Shown: one piece after another, positions 4,674-11,462 of the stretch
Position numbering within the stretch: position 1 is the first letter of the stretch
How the letters are laid out: each line of letters begins with the position of its first letter
From: Bdellovibrionales bacterium
GTDB lineage: Bacteria; Bdellovibrionota; UBA1018
Assembly: GCA_018968995.1 (NCBI GenBank)
Contig: JAGWZD010000026.1
Location: 1 to 13,776, forward strand
DNA: 13,776 nucleotides
Reading direction: 5' to 3'
The notes under the pieces: generated by a model
The model's database searches: none
Seen by the model: the letters and a program-made list of their open reading frames with translations, nothing else
What the model was told of the DNA's origin: nothing
Translations under genes and position numbers: made by a program

Positions 4674-4880
4674 GTGACTCTCATCTCCGAAATCAATTCT
4701 CGCTGCACTCGGTGTGGTGCCTGCTTAGACGAGTGCCCCAACCAAGCAATCGTCATTGGTCCCGTGACTTTCGCGATCGACACTGATTTCTGCGACGGGC
4801 ACGGCAACTGTATTGCTGTTTGCCCCGAGAGCGCCATCACGAACTCCGCTCAACCCCAAAAGGTGCCTCATAGAATATGA
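4674..4880 (+). CDS. small two-cluster ferredoxin with a CxxHxxC site
   Basis: From GTG at 4674 the product is 68 residues, a small bacterial ferredoxin serving as a cytoplasmic electron carrier. The first motif is complete: Cys11, 14, 17 and 21 (CTRCGACLDECP), of the CxxCxxCxxxCP type. The second is CDGHGNCIAVCP, with Cys40, His43, Cys46 and Cys50, so the second cysteine is replaced by histidine. By analogy with ferredoxins that carry non-Cys residues at this site, one centre may be [3Fe-4S] or a His-liganded [4Fe-4S]. GTG is chosen because it gives the usual ferredoxin N-terminus and matches the candidate promoter; ATG at 4644 (78 residues) or TTG at 4638 are alternatives, none with a good ribosome site. 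Its stop overlaps the anmK start (ATGA), so the two are translated together. The redox partner is unknown. Confidence 0.88.
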   Translation: MTLISEINSRCTRCGACLDECPNQAIVIGPVTFAIDTDFCDGHGNCIAVCPESAITNSAQPQKVPHRI

Positions 4881-6028
4881 TCATTTTAGGAATTATGACC
4901 GGAACTTCCTGCGACGCCCTCGACGCGGTCTGTGTAGAATTCAAAAAAAAGAAATTTAAAATCTTATCTCGCTTCTCAAAAAAATACCCCACAGACCTCA
5001 GAAGTCGAATTTTTCGATTCCAAGAACCCAACACAGAGCATCGCTCTCGAGACTGGATTGAACTGAATCGAGACCTAGGTAGGTTTTACTCCGCCGCAGC
5101 CCAAGGCATCGTGCGAAAGGCATCAGTACAGATCGATGTTATTGGAAATCACGGTCAGACACTGGCGCACTTCCCCGGAGTTGGCACTTTGCAGTTTGGA
5201 GATCCTTCGGTCATTTCCGCAGAAACAGGTCTCACCGTTGTTTCGCAATTTCGAACGGGAGACATGGCTGCCGGGGGCCAAGGGGCGCCTCTCGTTCCAC
5301 GCTTCCACCAAATCCTAGCCGAATCCTCTGGCGCATCAAAACATGGTTGTTCCATCCACAACCTGGGAGGATTCAGTAACCTCACTTACATTCACCCTAC
5401 GCTTGGAGTAAGGGCATGGGATACGGGCCCCGGAAACGCCTGGATTGACTTGGCTGTTTATCGCGCAAGCCGTGGAAAACTGGTGCTGGATCGAGGCGGA
5501 ACGCTTGCTCGCCTGGGAACGCCAGACTCGCGCTCTATTTCAAAACTTCTAAGGCATCCCTTTTTTGCAAAGAAACCGCCGAAGTCTACAGGCCGAGATG
5601 AATTTTCGGCAGCTCAGTTTTTTCGGAACCTGAAAAAGCTCCCACTTGCCGATGCTGCAGCCACAGCCACCCTGGCAACTGCCAAGAGTATTGCAAACGA
5701 ATACTCTCAAAATATTCTCAAAAAGGGACTGCCGCTAGAGACCATCTACTTTTGCGGCGGTGGCGCTCAAAACAAGACTCTCCTCGAGTGTATTCATGTT
5801 GAGTTACTGAGTTTGGGATGGTTTGTGGAAATAAAAAACTGTCAGGAACTGGGGGTTTCGGCTCAAGACATGGAAGCTGCGGCTTTCGCTTTCTTGGCTA
5901 AAGAATCACTTCTAGGCCACGCACTCGGGGGCCAGTGGACAGGGGCCAACGGATTCGGACCTCCTGGACAAATCACCCCTGGAGCGAACTGGTCGCGGAT
6001 TTTTAAAAAAATATCCGATCTTCAATAA
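4877..6028 (+). CDS. anmK: anhydro-N-acetylmuramic acid kinase (AnmK)
   Basis: AnmK opens the 1,6-anhydro ring of anhMurNAc, released by lytic transglycosylases, and phosphorylates it with ATP to MurNAc-6-phosphate during cell-wall recycling in the cytoplasm. The 383-residue length is normal. Motifs: GIMTGTSCDALD (5-16), the family's GxMSGTSxDGxD; GNHGQTLAHFP (90-100); LQFGDPSVIS; VVSQFRTGDMAAGGQGAPLVP (121-141), a strong signature; NLGGFSNLT (162-170); DTGPGN (182-187), with Asp182 as the expected catalytic base; PPKSTGRDEF (234-243); CGGGAQN (293-299); and MEAAAFAFLA (332-341). One small oddity is Ala instead of Gly in the DGxD part of the first motif. The ATG overlaps the ferredoxin stop. 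It ends only four bases before the end of the convergent murU-like gene. Confidence 0.96.
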   Translation: MIILGIMTGTSCDALDAVCVEFKKKKFKILSRFSKKYPTDLRSRIFRFQEPNTEHRSRDWIELNRDLGRFYSAAAQGIVRKASVQIDVIGNHGQTLAHFPGVGTLQFGDPSVISAETGLTVVSQFRTGDMAAGGQGAPLVPRFHQILAESSGASKHGCSIHNLGGFSNLTYIHPTLGVRAWDTGPGNAWIDLAVYRASRGKLVLDRGGTLARLGTPDSRSISKLLRHPFFAKKPPKSTGRDEFSAAQFFRNLKKLPLADAAATATLATAKSIANEYSQNILKKGLPLETIYFCGGGAQNKTLLECIHVELLSLGWFVEIKNCQELGVSAQDMEAAAFAFLAKESLLGHALGGQWTGANGFGPPGQITPGANWSRIFKKISDLQ

Positions 6029-6032
6029 ACCA

Positions 6033-6995
6033 CTAAAACTTTATCCAGTGTCCGGCCGCACCGATAGCATCACTGGGATCCAAACCCTCAGGAATGGAAC
6101 CATAAAAAATCGATCGCGGACCCAGCGACTTCGGCACGGAACCCCGACCATCCCAATAGCAGGGACCAACCCAACCCTCTGGCACACGATCGAGTGAGCT
6201 TGTACGCCGTGTCCAAACGCGCCGCCCCAAGGTTTTAGCTTCTTTTTCGATCAGTCCTTTCCACGAGTGAGGGAGTCGATTTTCTTCAAACTGCCGCATC
6301 ACTTGCAGATGCGCCTCCCACCAAAGCTTTGGAGAACCCACATCTAACCATAAGCCCGAGAAGTGATGTGCCCCCACACGATTCGCACTCATCTCTGGGC
6401 GCAAAATAGTGTCGACGAAGTCTGAGGGAATACCGTCTGGAACATTGGCCAAGGCCTCTGGCTCTAGGACCGCCACACCGGTGTACATTTTTCCTAAGCC
6501 CGTCTGCTGGCCTAAACCGATCACTAACTCTTCTGTGGGGTCGATCAAGATTTCTCGATAGCGCTGATCTGAAATGGACTCGCGATTCAAAAGCGCCATT
6601 GTAATGGTGACACCCCTAGTTTGTTTGAGGCGCTCATGCGTTGCCGCCAAATGATCCAGCTGAAGTGAGCAAAGCGTGTCGGCGTTAACGATAAAAAAAC
6701 TAGAAGAACCCCCAAAAGCCTCGAGCGCGGGCAGCGCTTTTTTTATTCCACCAGCACTTCCTAGAAGCGACGCAGTTTCGTCGCTGAATTTTAGACCCCC
6801 ACAAATCTCGAGCAGCCCCTGCTCTGTTTCGCGGGGCAAGTAATGCAGATTTGCAACCACGCGATCAACGCCGCCGAGCCTTAGAGCATCAAGAGCAAAC
6901 GCACTCGATGGAACTCCGAGAATGGGAGTCAACGGCTTTGGAATAGACTCACTAAATGGACGCAGTCGGGTGCCTAACCCTGCCGCCATGAGCAT
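6033..6995 (-). CDS. murU: MurU-like nucleotidyltransferase (MurNAc-1-phosphate uridylyltransferase), with C-terminal extension
   Basis: The N-terminal 235 or so residues are a sugar-1-phosphate nucleotidyltransferase: AAGLGTRLRP (4-13), IPKPLTPILGVP (18-29), GSAGGI (79-84), NADTL (104-108, with the metal-binding Asp) and GLWLDVGSPKLW (214-225). Alone these fit any NTP transferase of the RmlA/HddC/MurU group. The MurU role (UTP + MurNAc-1-P to UDP-MurNAc) is inferred from its position directly after the AmgK gene, as in Pseudomonas. It is 320 residues, against roughly 225 for Pseudomonas MurU; the extra 80 or so residues (240-320) do not look like standard hexapeptide repeats. The ATG at 6995 has AAGG close by; ATG at 6989 has better spacing (eight bases) and leaves MAAGLGTRL. 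Other sugar nucleotides remain possible products. Confidence 0.82.
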   Translation of the reverse strand: MLMAAGLGTRLRPFSESIPKPLTPILGVPSSAFALDALRLGGVDRVVANLHYLPRETEQGLLEICGGLKFSDETASLLGSAGGIKKALPALEAFGGSSSFFIVNADTLCSLQLDHLAATHERLKQTRGVTITMALLNRESISDQRYREILIDPTEELVIGLGQQTGLGKMYTGVAVLEPEALANVPDGIPSDFVDTILRPEMSANRVGAHHFSGLWLDVGSPKLWWEAHLQVMRQFEENRLPHSWKGLIEKEAKTLGRRVWTRRTSSLDRVPEGWVGPCYWDGRGSVPKSLGPRSIFYGSIPEGLDPSDAIGAAGHWIKF

Positions 6996-7026: not shown

Positions 7027-8073
7027 CTAGAAGTAGTAGTAATGGAACAAAGTCTCCCGAAGCGCGGAGTACTGAGGATACTTCAAAAGAGTTCGTCGAA
7101 TATTTTCGAAAGTATTCCCAATATATTTCAAGTAGCTGGCGTCGCCGCGACGATTCAAAAAAGATGCAAAACTACCGATAGCTTTAAAGTTTCTTTGCAC
7201 TGCCATCAGATCAAAAATCTCTATAAATCTTCTTCTGTCTAACGCCTTTCCAGAGAGGGCCTCATAGCGAGCGATATAATAATCGATCAGACGCTGAATC
7301 TGCGACTCCTCTAGCTGGTAATAACTGTCTTTCAAAAGAGATGCTAAGTCGTATTGGGCTGGGCCCATTCTGGCGTCCTGAAAGTCAATCATCACAAACT
7401 CAGAGTCAACAGAAGGCCTAGATCCCTCTGGCGAAAGAACCATCACATTACGACTATGAAAATCTCGATGCGCTAAAACCTTAGGCTCAGAAGCCAGCCG
7501 AGCACAAATTTCTATGAAACCCTCTTCCATCACCGCTCGGTGCGCCGGTAGTATCGATCTTTTGAGATATTTTTCGTAAAAGTGTTCGAATGTGAAACGA
7601 ACTTCCCACATGAGCTTTTCTTGATCGAACTCCAGACGAAAGGCATCGATGCTTTTCGCGCCGGGAGCTGGGCCCGCCTTTGTCTGCAACTGCACCAAGG
7701 AGTCAATCACTCGCTCGTAATAGTGCCGCTCGACCTCTGAGTTGGCACACTCCTGAAGGACCCGAAGCAGCGTGGCGTCTCCAAGATCCTCCAGTAAAAT
7801 TAAACCTCTCGCTGGATCTAGGTTGTAAACGGAAGGCACACGAACACCAGAGTCATGCAGATGGCTCCGAACAACCAAAAATGGAAGCTCCAAGCCTTGC
7901 TCAACGAAAGGGTCCGTCCGCATCACGATACAACTTAATGCTCCGGCAAAACCCTCGGGCTGTTTGAAGGTCGCGCGGTAGTACTTTCTGGAACTCGCAT
8001 CTCCCGGAAGCTTCACGAGAGACTGTAGCTGAGAACTCGAGTTCGACACGAAATCGATAATTTGTTTTTCCAT
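7027..8073 (-). CDS. amgK: AmgK-like N-acetylmuramate/N-acetylglucosamine kinase
   Basis: AmgK phosphorylates the anomeric hydroxyl of MurNAc (and GlcNAc), producing MurNAc-1-phosphate for MurU. It is an aminoglycoside-phosphotransferase-fold kinase. From ATG at 8073 it has 348 residues. Visible: LPGDASSRKYYRATF (22-36), the AmgK version of the Gly-rich loop; LILLEDLGDATLL (91-103); the catalytic loop VLAHRDFHSRNVMVL (199-213, catalytic Asp204); MIDFQDARMGPAQYDLASLLKD (228-249, metal-binding Asp230). HRDxHSRNxMxL and DFQDAxxGPxxYDLxSLLKD are highly characteristic. The ATG has AGGA five bases upstream and gives the usual family N-terminus. A GTG at 8124, overlapping the preceding stop, would add 17 residues. 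murU follows after 31 bases. The tail ends in three tyrosines and a Phe. Confidence 0.92.
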   Translation of the reverse strand: MEKQIIDFVSNSSSQLQSLVKLPGDASSRKYYRATFKQPEGFAGALSCIVMRTDPFVEQGLELPFLVVRSHLHDSGVRVPSVYNLDPARGLILLEDLGDATLLRVLQECANSEVERHYYERVIDSLVQLQTKAGPAPGAKSIDAFRLEFDQEKLMWEVRFTFEHFYEKYLKRSILPAHRAVMEEGFIEICARLASEPKVLAHRDFHSRNVMVLSPEGSRPSVDSEFVMIDFQDARMGPAQYDLASLLKDSYYQLEESQIQRLIDYYIARYEALSGKALDRRRFIEIFDLMAVQRNFKAIGSFASFLNRRGDASYLKYIGNTFENIRRTLLKYPQYSALRETLFHYYYF

Positions 8074-8120
8074 GATCTTCCTGATCTCTTCCACTGCCCC
8101 AGCGGGCAAAATTAAGGACT

Positions 8121-8882
8121 TCACAACTTTTTGAGCCTCTTTTCAATTTCTCCAAATTCAGTGGACCGCACAACAGGATTCATCAGCGGAACCTTTCGGG
8201 AGATCTGAGCAATTGCCTCTTCCTGCAGGATGATCGACCAGTCTGGTGACATTCCGCTCCATTCCGATTTCGTCCTTTGCCAAAATCGGGGAACCCCGCG
8301 GGGATCATATCCCGCCTTATAAAGCAGATCGACCATCCGTAGATTCACCGAGCGCCACTCCGAATCCGTGAACTTTGGAAGAGTGACGCGCGGCGAGGTA
8401 GTGCCCTGCTCCGCCATTTCAGCGATGAGTTCCTCGGATCGAACACTCATGCGCTCACTGAGTGCTTGTGCCGCTGCAAGCGCCGCAGCTAGCTCGTTTT
8501 CGTAGCGCAAAGACCTTAATGCGCCCGAAGAAAAGTACCAACGATAGCCAGGAAGAACAAAGATTGGAGTTCTTTGCTGCGCAGGCAAAGATGATAAAAG
8601 AGTGATTCGAGGGGGATTCAAAACCCCCAGCTTTCCAGCCATGGCGGCCATCTTCTCAACCAGAACCGGGTCCTCACGCTGAAGAAGTAATCCTCCAATA
8701 CCCGAGGCCCAGCGGTCTCCAAGAATCCTCTCCTTTTCTAAACGATCCGAAGAAGAGAGGTCTTTTCGACCCTGGGGAGAGGCACAGCCCCCAAATCCGA
8801 CCGCAAGAATGACGAGAAGAATAGAAAATCTTTTGCGGTGCGTTGTTTCTGTCAATTTTTCTGCCCAAACGTGTTTTTTCAT
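8121..8882 (-). CDS. M48-like lipoprotein with all zinc ligands lost (probable pseudoprotease), upstream of amgK
   Basis: From ATG at 8882 the product has 253 residues: a basic N-terminus, a hydrophobic segment (20-31) and Cys33 in FGGC, a tolerable lipobox. The mature part follows the M48 (BepA/YcaL/LoiP-like) layout: FVLPGYRWYFSSGALRSL (108-125), matching the LPGGxIxxxxGLL segment; NELAAALA (129-136), leading into the expected HExxH helix; and AGYDPRGVPRFWQR (190-203), the segment after the third ligand. The expected HExxH reads AAQAL (137-141) and the expected ExxAD-type ligand region reads SVN (178-180), so no zinc can bind in the usual way. I infer an envelope lipoprotein of M48 descent working as a binding or scaffold protein. 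It ends at the GTG that could start amgK, so its mRNA is shared with the MurNAc recycling genes. Confidence 0.72.
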   Translation of the reverse strand: MKKHVWAEKLTETTHRKRFSILLVILAVGFGGCASPQGRKDLSSSDRLEKERILGDRWASGIGGLLLQREDPVLVEKMAAMAGKLGVLNPPRITLLSSLPAQQRTPIFVLPGYRWYFSSGALRSLRYENELAAALAAAQALSERMSVRSEELIAEMAEQGTTSPRVTLPKFTDSEWRSVNLRMVDLLYKAGYDPRGVPRFWQRTKSEWSGMSPDWSIILQEEAIAQISRKVPLMNPVVRSTEFGEIEKRLKKL

Positions 8883-8982: not shown

Positions 8983-9561
8983 ATGAACTTAAACAGATTT
9001 TTGAAAAAATTTGTTTCTGGCTCCGCTGCCGCTCTCGCCCTTTTCCTGGCCGCCACTCCGGCCCGAGCCGATCTCACCTCGCTTGAGCTGCAAGCCCTAA
9101 GCACCGTCACTCCGCTGGACCTGATCAATTGGAAGGTCGGCGATACCATGAGCTACCAACTCAGCATGGTGTTTGGAAAAGGCACCATGGTGAAAAGCGT
9201 AAATAAAGACGAAGGTACAGCCCTTTGGTTGCACCAGGACATCAATATCATGGGACAAAACCAGACAGCTGATGTTCTCATCAACAAGGCTGATGGAAAG
9301 ATCCTCAAGATGATTCAGAACGGAAAAGAAGTTCAAATTCCCGATGATAAAGTGGAAGTCATTTCTCAGGACTACGCTGACGTCACCGTACCCGCTGGAA
9401 CCTTCTCCTCGATCCACATCGTCGCGAAAACAAAACAGGTTTCAAAAATTGAAATGTGGGCAAACCCCAGCGAAACAGCGCTAGACGGCGCCCTGAAGCA
9501 GATCATGGCGACTACGTTTGGAAACATGACGCTTGAACTGACATCGTTCAAGCGAAACTAA
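8983..9561 (+). CDS. secreted periplasmic protein, DUF3108-like
   Basis: From ATG at 8983 (AAAGGA seven bases upstream) the product has 192 residues. A clear Sec signal peptide ends at ARA (residue 29; LKK, then an Ala/Leu-rich core). The mature protein is mostly beta strands with alternating polar and hydrophobic residues: WKVGDTMSYQLSM, ALWLHQDINI, ADVLINKADGKILKMIQNGKE, then DVTVPAGTFSSIHIV and KIEMWANPS. The VPAGTFxxxHI element followed by a strand ending in WxxP resembles DUF3108-type periplasmic beta-sheet proteins; I give this as similarity of pattern only. It stands alone between a divergent promoter region and a strong terminator, so it is probably monocistronic and well expressed. 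An upstream ATG at 8950 would hide the signal peptide and is rejected. No function can be assigned. Confidence 0.82.
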   Translation: MNLNRFLKKFVSGSAAALALFLAATPARADLTSLELQALSTVTPLDLINWKVGDTMSYQLSMVFGKGTMVKSVNKDEGTALWLHQDINIMGQNQTADVLINKADGKILKMIQNGKEVQIPDDKVEVISQDYADVTVPAGTFSSIHIVAKTKQVSKIEMWANPSETALDGALKQIMATTFGNMTLELTSFKRN

Positions 9562-9637: not shown

Positions 9638-10324
9638 TCAGCCCAAACTCAGCGCAGTTTGAGCAATTTCCTGATGAGATGTTCGCTCCAAAAATAGATC
9701 TCGTTGATCCAGGGCGCTCAAAATCCTCGAGCAGACTTGGTCAAAATGTTCTGGATTGTGAAGAAAGTCCAAGTCGTCGCTAGGAATAATAAGCTTCTTC
9801 CCCAGGTCATAAGTGCTCATCCAGTCATCATAATACCTATTTAGGCTTTGCAGATAATCGTCTGGAATTCCCTTTTCATAGTCGCGCCCTCTTTTAGCGA
9901 TTCGCTCTTTCAGCTTTGGAAGGGACTTCTTGAGGTAAATCACCAGGTCTGGCGGGGTCAAAAAAGACGCCATCGTTTGATAAAGGTCGATATAGTTTCG
10001 ATAATCTCTTTCGGAGAGCTGCCCCTGTTCGTACAGGTTTCGGGCGAAAATATTTGCGTCCTCATAGATACTACGATCCTGGATCGCGCTATCTGTTCCC
10101 GTGGTGACCTTCTGATGGGCCTTGAAACGATGATTCAAGAAGAACACCTGCAAAGGAAAAGACCAGCGAGACATGTCGGCGTAGAAATCAGACAGATAAG
10201 GGTTTTCGGCAACACACTCAAAATGCGGAGCCCAACCAAAACGACGCGACAGCATCTGCGTGAGGGTCGTCTTCCCCGTTCCAATATTTCCAGCAATCGC
10301 AATGAAGATCTTCTGACTGAACAC
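9638..10324 (-). CDS. deoxynucleoside kinase (dAK/dGK family)
   Basis: The 228-residue protein belongs to the deoxyadenosine/deoxyguanosine kinase family, which phosphorylates deoxynucleosides with ATP for nucleotide salvage in the cytoplasm. Seen: P-loop GNIGTGKTT (12-20); VAENPYLSDFYADMSRWSFPLQ (38-59), containing the substrate-site Glu and the family's ENPYLxxFYxDxxRWxFxxQ pattern; the DRS motif (83-85, QDRSIYEDANIF); DLVIYLKKS (126-134); and the Arg-rich lid RIAKRGRDYEKG (141-152). Length is normal. Substrate preference (dA, dG or dC) cannot be set by reading. The start is GTG with G-rich sequence upstream rather than a classic ribosome site. The TPR-like gene ends 124 bases upstream, and a possible own promoter lies in that gap. 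A terminator follows it. Confidence 0.93.
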   Translation of the reverse strand: MFSQKIFIAIAGNIGTGKTTLTQMLSRRFGWAPHFECVAENPYLSDFYADMSRWSFPLQVFFLNHRFKAHQKVTTGTDSAIQDRSIYEDANIFARNLYEQGQLSERDYRNYIDLYQTMASFLTPPDLVIYLKKSLPKLKERIAKRGRDYEKGIPDDYLQSLNRYYDDWMSTYDLGKKLIIPSDDLDFLHNPEHFDQVCSRILSALDQRDLFLERTSHQEIAQTALSLG

Positions 10325-10356
10325 TATCCACCCCCGTGAACTTTTCAGTACCGCAG

Positions 10357-10385
10357 GTCTTAGGTTGGCCGCACCGCCCCGTCAA
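10357..10385 (-). promoter_or_regulatory. weak candidate promoter for the deoxynucleoside kinase
   Basis: On the minus strand TTGACG (10385-10380) is followed after 17 bases by TAAGAC (10362-10357). The -35 is one mismatch from consensus, the -10 only partial. It sits just downstream of a GC-rich hairpin and about 33 bases before the GTG start, so the kinase could be transcribed on its own. Low certainty. Confidence 0.3.
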
Positions 10386-10388
10386 GCC

Positions 10389-10411
10389 GGGGGGCCAAAT
10401 TTTGACCCCCC
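10389..10411. other. GC-rich hairpin between TPR gene and kinase gene
   Basis: GGGGGGCCAA pairs with TTGACCCCCC around a three-base loop, with one C-A mismatch, in the 124-base gap after the TPR-like gene. No U run follows in the minus direction, so it is a poor intrinsic terminator; it may be an attenuating or mRNA-end-protecting structure. Confidence 0.35.
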
Positions 10412-10448
10412 GCCACCCCAGCCTCGTTTCACCTGTCTTTTCGTGCGT

Positions 10449-11462
10449 TTAACGACTGGCGTCAAAAACCTTGGGGTCCCACCACCCCAAATCAATTCCT
10501 GATTTCCCTGCTAAACGCTGATAGCCCCCGGGAAATAGATTCAAAAAACGCCTGACCTGGGGCTTCGAGGACGGCTCCAGACGAATCAGGGCCCATAAAA
10601 GCCAGCCCGTCTCGGAATTCCACTGAGCCGGGTTCTGTTGGGCTAGGCCAGCAAGGAGTTTCCTTGCCGCTGAGGAACGGCCCGATGCAACCAGGGCGTC
10701 GACCATCCAAGCACGCCAGTGGGGGCGGTCGCGCTGCTCAGCACCCCCCGCTCTCCAGGCGGAAAAAACCTCCTGAGCTCCCTCCGTCTTTTCCCCTCTA
10801 GAAATGAGCACGTGTCCCAACCAGATTTTTAGCTCGGGCTCGAACGGATTGAGCTGACCCGCGAGTCGAAGACTCTCCGCTGCAGAGTCCCAATTGCCCA
10901 AGATTGCTTCAACTTGACCCTTGCGAACCAAGGCATCAAAGACTTGATGCTCAGAATCCAGCACGGACTCAAGTCGAGCAAGTGCAGATCTGAAATTTCC
11001 TGCCAGAATGGCATTCACAGCTCCTTGATATTCTCGTGCCCCGCTGGCAGTCACAAACGCCCGAGAGATCACTCGAACTTTCTGCTCGAGTCGATTGCGA
11101 TCTCGCTCTTTTGAGCTCTGCCCATAAGTCGCAAGCAACGTTCGAGCAGCCTCTTCGCGGCGACCACTAAGCAAAAGCAAAGAAGACAAATCAAGCGCCA
11201 GATCTGCTGAGCCAGGGTCACGACTCCACTGCCTCTTTAATAGGATGACCGAGCGTTCGCGATCTTCCTCAGTAAGCCCCCAGGTAGAAGGAGTGGCCTG
11301 AGCCCCCGTGAGGGCGGCTAGTGTCAGTAATAGAAATACAAAGAATGCCGGCGACAAAACGCTGACGCAAGAGCGCCTACAGTTAAGAACAAGAGCAATC
11401 CAAGCTGCCGATTTCTCGACAGTTAAATGGACGACCGATAGAATTCCTGACATGCCTTGCAT
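10449..11462 (-). CDS. secreted TPR-like repeat protein
   Basis: The longest reading is 337 residues, all-helical after an N-terminal hydrophobic signal (about 36-57, ending GAQA before TPSTW). Several helix pairs have TPR character: ALDLSSLLLLSGRREEAART (89-108), AILAGNFRSALARLESVL (151-168), ALVRKGQVEAILGNWDSAAESLRLAGQLNPFEP (177-209) and IWLGHVLISRGEKTEGAQEVFSAW (213-236). TPR proteins mediate protein contacts; here the site would be the periplasm. The start is uncertain. ATG at 11462 or 11453 leaves 35 residues before the signal and overlaps the start of the divergent barrel gene. TTG at 11357 gives a more ordinary signal peptide but has no visible ribosome site. Partner and function are unknown. 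It may be co-transcribed with the downstream kinase, though a 124-base gap with a hairpin separates them. Confidence 0.78.
   Translation of the reverse strand: MQGMSGILSVVHLTVEKSAAWIALVLNCRRSCVSVLSPAFFVFLLLTLAALTGAQATPSTWGLTEEDRERSVILLKRQWSRDPGSADLALDLSSLLLLSGRREEAARTLLATYGQSSKERDRNRLEQKVRVISRAFVTASGAREYQGAVNAILAGNFRSALARLESVLDSEHQVFDALVRKGQVEAILGNWDSAAESLRLAGQLNPFEPELKIWLGHVLISRGEKTEGAQEVFSAWRAGGAEQRDRPHWRAWMVDALVASGRSSAARKLLAGLAQQNPAQWNSETGWLLWALIRLEPSSKPQVRRFLNLFPGGYQRLAGKSGIDLGWWDPKVFDASR
11416..11444 (+). promoter_or_regulatory. candidate sigma70 promoter of the barrel-lptM-lysA operon
   Basis: TCGACA (11416-11421), a 17-base spacer and TAGAAT (11439-11444) are each one mismatch from TTGACA and TATAAT. 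The expected start of transcription (11451-11452) coincides with the ATG at 11452, and no ribosome site precedes that ATG, so a leaderless message is predicted. Found by eye. Confidence 0.5.

Follow-up and report, generated by a model that had tools for sequence, protein, structure and literature searches.

The amgK-murU operon in the window (by which we mean the whole 13,776-nucleotide stretch of Bdellovibrionales DNA analysed here) is headed by a gene for a predicted lipoprotein that, as is clear from its homologues and its modelled fold, is related to the M48 peptidases, and it has lost the zinc site of that family. Full-site copies linked to amgK exist in three other families (f7, f8 and f11), yet the loss spans the whole order to which the window belongs (families f1-f6) and a second family, f15; the preliminary description had allowed for the window gene to be the only altered one among amgK-linked homologues that retain HExxH, and this is not the pattern found. 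Our findings suggest that, across a wide group of mostly uncultured bacteria related to predatory ones, the protein has been kept to hold rather than to cut a partner. That this former M48 protein now serves as a non-cutting, BepA-like holder of a client is a reading to which we give about an even chance.

M48 proteases, BepA for one, assist their outer-membrane clients and also degrade them, and the two jobs are hard to separate. The operon described here provides natural experiments, in that one place is filled by full-site copies in three families and by site-less copies in others, the site having apparently been lost twice. Comparison of the two forms would reveal the non-cutting job of the fold and the reason for its tie to the salvage of cell-wall sugars in these bacteria.

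The M48 fold and the former zinc site

The reading frame is real and, judged by its sequence, has a lipoprotein-like signal with a cysteine at residue 33 (Table 1), so that the product reads as a periplasm-facing predicted lipoprotein. The cysteine column is invariant in 54/54 rows of alignment A1, whose row starts were picked by script, partly by lipobox, and in 19/19 rows of alignment A4. Alignment A1 includes three full-site copies and excludes those of genomes G009, G019 and G042, in which the starts are unclear.

Table 1. Features of the operon and of the M48-fold protein, in window coordinates
Feature	Position	Strand	Basis
M48-fold pseudopeptidase lipoprotein gene (putative), 253 aa	8121..8882	-	ORF; profile matches to M48 structures; model; fold matches
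Signal peptide, residues 1-32	8787..8882	-	read from sequence; model helix 4-30
Cys33 codon, predicted lipidated residue	8784..8786	-	invariant column in alignment A1
Hairpin, residues 107-118	8529..8564	-	model strands 107-110 and 114-118; BepA profile alignment
Former HExxH, residues 137-141, reads AAQAL	8460..8474	-	alignment with full-site homologues
Former third-ligand ExxAD, residues 176-180, reads WRSVN	8343..8357	-	alignment with full-site homologues
Place of HPx4R active-site plug, residues 213-219, motif absent	8226..8246	-	alignment columns
GYDPRG, residues 191-196	8295..8312	-	D193 and R195 invariant in A1
C-terminal block PLMNPVVRSTEF, residues 232-243	8154..8189	-	conserved in order
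GTGA overlap of M48-fold gene stop and possible amgK start	8121..8124	-	sequence
amgK-like MurNAc/GlcNAc kinase gene	7027..8124	-	Pfam APH 2.3e-20; NCBIfam AmgK 1.6e-40
murU-like MurNAc-1-phosphate uridylyltransferase gene	6033..6995	-	Pfam NTP_transferase; NCBIfam MurU 2.3e-28, below cut-off
anmK (anhydro-MurNAc kinase), convergent neighbour	4877..6028	+	Pfam AnmK 3.3e-76

Scanned as a single sequence, the window protein gave zero Pfam or NCBIfam matches up to E 1, and its membership of the M48 family was therefore tested through its homologues. PF01435 is matched by 31 of the 54 A1 rows at E <= 0.01, the three full-site copies being among those rows, and the A1 profile matches solved M48 structures, the best of them being 3c37 (E 5.9e-38), with BepA at E 4e-23. 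In structure comparison the model of the window protein likewise matches the M48 fold. The M48 relation proposed in the preliminary description is borne out by these profile matches and by the fold comparison, with no match from the window sequence itself, and the flanking M48 landmarks that it claimed are present. Q74D82 (PDB 3c37), which we take to be of Geobacter origin, is a single-domain M48 peptidase equal in size to the window protein and is the top sequence-profile match; it retains HExxH and the glutamate of ExxAD, whereas the window protein has neither.

HEXXH, the glutamate ligand and HPX4R are named as family-wide features in PMC7950410. When the ligand columns were set by amgK-linked homologues that retain the complete motif, AAQAL was confirmed at the place of HExxH, and the SVN previously read at the third ligand proved to be the end of the ExxAD stretch, with Trp176 occupying the glutamate column itself. 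The plug histidine is absent too, and none of the 221 residues of the mature chain is a histidine. Among amgK neighbours in the order the ligand loss is conserved: the first histidine of HExxH is found in 0/49 copies and the plug histidine in 0/49 (three of them gaps). The loss is graded, with the HExxH glutamate retained in 27/49 copies, the second histidine in 24/49 and a glutamate at the third-ligand column in 4/49 (two gaps). All three ligands together occur in 0/49 copies and two in four, which pair the second histidine with the third-ligand glutamate, while 13 of the 49 lack the first histidine, the glutamate, the second histidine and the third ligand alike, all three read members of the window's genus being among them. 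These 49 copies include those of G009, G019 and G042, despite their exclusion from A1, and leave out a short copy of 172 aa (G015), a contig-edge fragment (G024), ordinary M48 paralogues in G004 (L055) and G015 (L056), and a match from the window's own genome (L008) that lay below the cut-off.

The retained second histidine, and the four copies that add a glutamate at the third-ligand column, might be taken to mean that the protein is still an enzyme, with a remodelled metal site or with some other hydrolase activity in its cleft. We consider this extremely improbable: the window's mature protein is histidine-free, 13 relatives have nothing left of the site, and no new catalytic-looking set appears among the alignment columns viewed. 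With the fold kept, the ligands lost and the gene maintained, sequence and model together mark the protein as a putative pseudopeptidase, its inactivity being a prediction.

The loss is specific to the operon copy. In a profile search of 11 genomes, 12/12 matches besides the window gene keep HExxH. The window genome encodes five other M48 proteins above the Pfam cut-off, all of them with HExxH, one of which is also among the 12. A scan of contigs from named genomes, made with an 11-row alignment, found 38 loci; the 15 that adjoin amgK are all without HExxH and the remaining 23/23 keep it. The 15 come from records labelled Bdellovibrionales, Oligoflexia, Bacteriovoracaceae, Bacteriovorax or plain 'bacterium' and they overlap genomes already counted, so they are not independent.

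The operon and the loss across families

The operon arrangement described earlier holds, although the reference to MurNAc recycling kinases does not extend to MurU, which is a uridylyltransferase. The names AmgK and MurU are best NCBIfam matches that fall under the models' own cut-offs, the AmgK match scoring 139 bits against a cut-off of 550, and the genes are best regarded as amgK-like and murU-like. The M48-fold gene ends in a TGA that lies within a four-base overlap with amgK, if the latter begins at its possible GTG start. Translation of amgK might instead begin at an in-frame ATG some 17 codons further on, because in most AmgK relatives the alignment does not begin until query residue 8-36. 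In the class, a relative lies directly upstream of amgK on the same strand in 53 of the 54 genomes with an AmgK locus read, a count that includes the short G015 copy, and the one exception (G024) is cut by a contig edge. AmgK has no match in four of 58 class genomes (G004, G047, G011 and G014), and in these a profile search found no degenerate copy: G004 and G047 have only M48 copies with HExxH, and G011 and G014, both 82% complete, have no match. Our scan for promoters and terminators performed no better than chance.

Several other genes lie close by. The divergent neighbour (8989-9561, plus strand) encodes a product of 190 aa that looks from its sequence like an exported protein and is DUF3108-like below the cut-off, and a relative of it is found near the operon in 18 class genomes, the window's included. 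The deoxynucleoside kinase and TPR protein genes (9638-11462, minus strand) belong to a block that lies near the operon in many class genomes. The 172 aa copy in G015 (L093:4730-5245, minus strand) stands beside amgK in a genome of 2.0 Mb and is perhaps decaying.

Beyond the order, full sites (HExxH, the glutamate ligand and the HP plug) stand beside amgK in 9/9 copies read from f7, f8 and f11. These copies share with the window protein their operon place, their lipoprotein-like start and their domain, but the window protein lacks every element of the site. The f15 proteins are amgK-linked lipoproteins that differ from the window protein in the residues now found at the lost site and in their set of conserved C-terminal residues. 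They show the same M48 fold, an assignment that rests on profile-profile comparison and a model because direct matches are weak: the f15 profile reaches solved M48 structures at E 0.042 (3c37) and PF01435 is matched by 1/19 members. In the phylum sample the gene was read in 19 of 49 f15 genomes, two of the 19 rows (G104 and G143) being without a profile match and included by position, and in 6/6 f11 genomes.

On the RNA-polymerase tree there were apparently two independent losses, one in f1-f6 and one in f15, if it is assumed that the operon was inherited vertically and that the site was never regained. With AmgK taken by itself a single loss is still acceptable (p-AU 0.51) and one loss cannot be told from two, so a tree of RpoB and RpoC was used, with 27 of 29 genomes (G006 and G171 were dropped, having no match). 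The AmgK analyses left out pieces shorter than 270 aa, and seven long-branch rows were removed from the p-AU tree. The M48 tree by itself gives no decision on the deep splits. In G055 the rpoB gene is split (L230, L231) and the second of its matched stretches is interrupted by one TAA; an assembly or sequencing error is perhaps the cause.

A search of 14 of the 20 fetched genomes with two profiles (E 1e-3) found no M48-like gene next to amgK in f9, f10, f13, f14, f18, f20 or f22-f25. In the f12 genome G061 (L178) an M48-like piece is separated from amgK by about 1 kb on the upstream side and was not counted. The gene upstream of amgK in the f13 genome G099 (L164:5069-5932, minus strand) instead encodes a product of 288 aa whose match to Sigma54_activ_2 is borderline, and N-termini that look similar by eye occur at the amgK loci of f20 and f22-f25.

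The dead copy might instead be a regulator, binding active M48 paralogues or peptidoglycan-turnover enzymes, damping or sensing them and so coupling wall turnover to MurNAc salvage. The window genome does carry five M48 paralogues with HExxH, the gene is locked to amgK-murU, and according to PMC11266112 pseudoenzymes in some cases regulate their active relatives or act as scaffolds for complexes. Full-site copies nevertheless occupy the equal operon place in other families, which makes the operon link independent of the loss of the site, and we regard a regulatory role as rather unlikely.

Maintenance of the gene

Reading frames are open in all counted copies, 49 from f1-f6 and 19 from f15. 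Values of dN/dS (NG86) are 0.10-0.15 in seven degenerate pairs, in all of which dS exceeds 0.9, and 0.27 in an eighth; the ninth pair, from f15, has no solvable dS. All pairs were drawn from genera other than the window's own (g26, g30 and g34). In the six f1-f6 pairs for which both could be computed, AmgK is more constrained than the degenerate M48 form, whereas in a full-site f11 pair the M48 protein evolves no faster than AmgK (0.07 against 0.11). Within the C-terminal block, P232 and P236 are conserved in 100% of f1-f6 copies and F243 in 96%. Open frames and purifying selection in relatives thus point to a maintained protein; the selection for a non-proteolytic role that had been proposed is supported as to selection, with the non-proteolytic part only probable.

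A relic whose frame stays open only since its stop overlaps amgK and feeds amgK translation would account for the overlap, for the faster evolution relative to AmgK in the six pairs and for the short copy in G015. Such a relic would not be expected to keep D193, R195, P232, P236 and the anchor cysteine invariant or at 100% in the order, to show dN/dS of 0.10-0.27 across eight pairs, to stay open in all counted copies of f1-f6 and f15 or to retain the fold after both losses, and we think this explanation very improbable.

BepA and the possible role of the protein

BepA (YfgC; PDB 6ait, 6sar) is an M48 metallopeptidase of E. coli with which the window protein shares its fold and a strand in the position of the edge strand. 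Unlike BepA, the window protein has no HExxH, glutamate ligand or HPx4R plug; it is also a predicted lipoprotein in an amgK-murU operon, and it ends at residue 253, aligned to BepA 285, so that the C-terminal TPR domain of BepA is missing. According to PMC8423444, the edge strand of BepA holds LptD and is needed both for its assembly and for its degradation, His246 keeping the protease off meanwhile.

A non-cutting holder of a client is the simplest reading of these data; the client, and the reason for co-production with AmgK and MurU, we infer. On this view the amgK-murU operon was already headed by an active M48 metallopeptidase, from which the present protein derives. Order f1-f6 and, separately, f15 would then have lost the zinc site and the HPx4R plug while keeping the fold, the lipid anchor and also the hairpin that lies beside the former active site, the plug having become dispensable because no protease was left to restrain. 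By analogy, the protein may work like the non-cutting half of BepA and take hold, by strand addition, of an envelope client in extended or partly folded form, which would be held or presented uncleaved. Since the protein would be made together with AmgK and MurU, its amount would be tied to cell-wall turnover, and the client is therefore probably an outer-membrane or peptidoglycan-turnover protein. More tentatively, we suggest that an M48 envelope protease fixed before amgK-murU turned non-cutting at least twice, the operon favouring the holding form. The result would be an envelope lipoprotein dedicated to MurNAc salvage, gripping or sensing a client in peptidoglycan turnover or in the outer membrane, and co-production with the salvage enzymes would set its level.

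Pseudopeptidases are already known in several metallopeptidase families. The ADAM, M14 and FtsHi homologues treated in PMC11266112 have lost active-site residues and kept the peptidase domain, as here, but belong to other families, and the term M48 is absent from the main text of that article. Searches of the open-licence literature, judged by titles and opening lines of abstracts, gave no fitting M48 pseudopeptidase lipoprotein, and nothing usable was found there on a link between amgK, lptD and surA. Of two Babesia protease surveys, one has an M48A protein with its ligands intact; the other speaks of M48 only generally, placing it with multi-pass proteinases or homologues that are not proteinases.

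Two observations on BepA in PMC8423444 count, by analogy, against a non-cutting holder: the protease-dead E137Q form has weakened chaperone-like activity, and prolines introduced into the edge strand (A106P, F107P) impair it. In the window protein, the modelled strand 107-110 aligns by profile with the BepA edge strand at 106-109. The hairpin, next to the cleft, is preserved in outline: P111 is found in 45/49 f1-f6 and 19/19 f15 copies and G112 in 41/49 f1-f6 copies, and position 108 is mostly aromatic or leucine. Residues of the strand itself are variable, and the hairpin may therefore have been retained simply because the fold includes it. Pro106 of the window protein aligns with BepA Asn105 and immediately precedes the modelled strand; a proline is present in that column in 4/49 copies of the order, and in f15 a proline stands one column earlier in 19/19.
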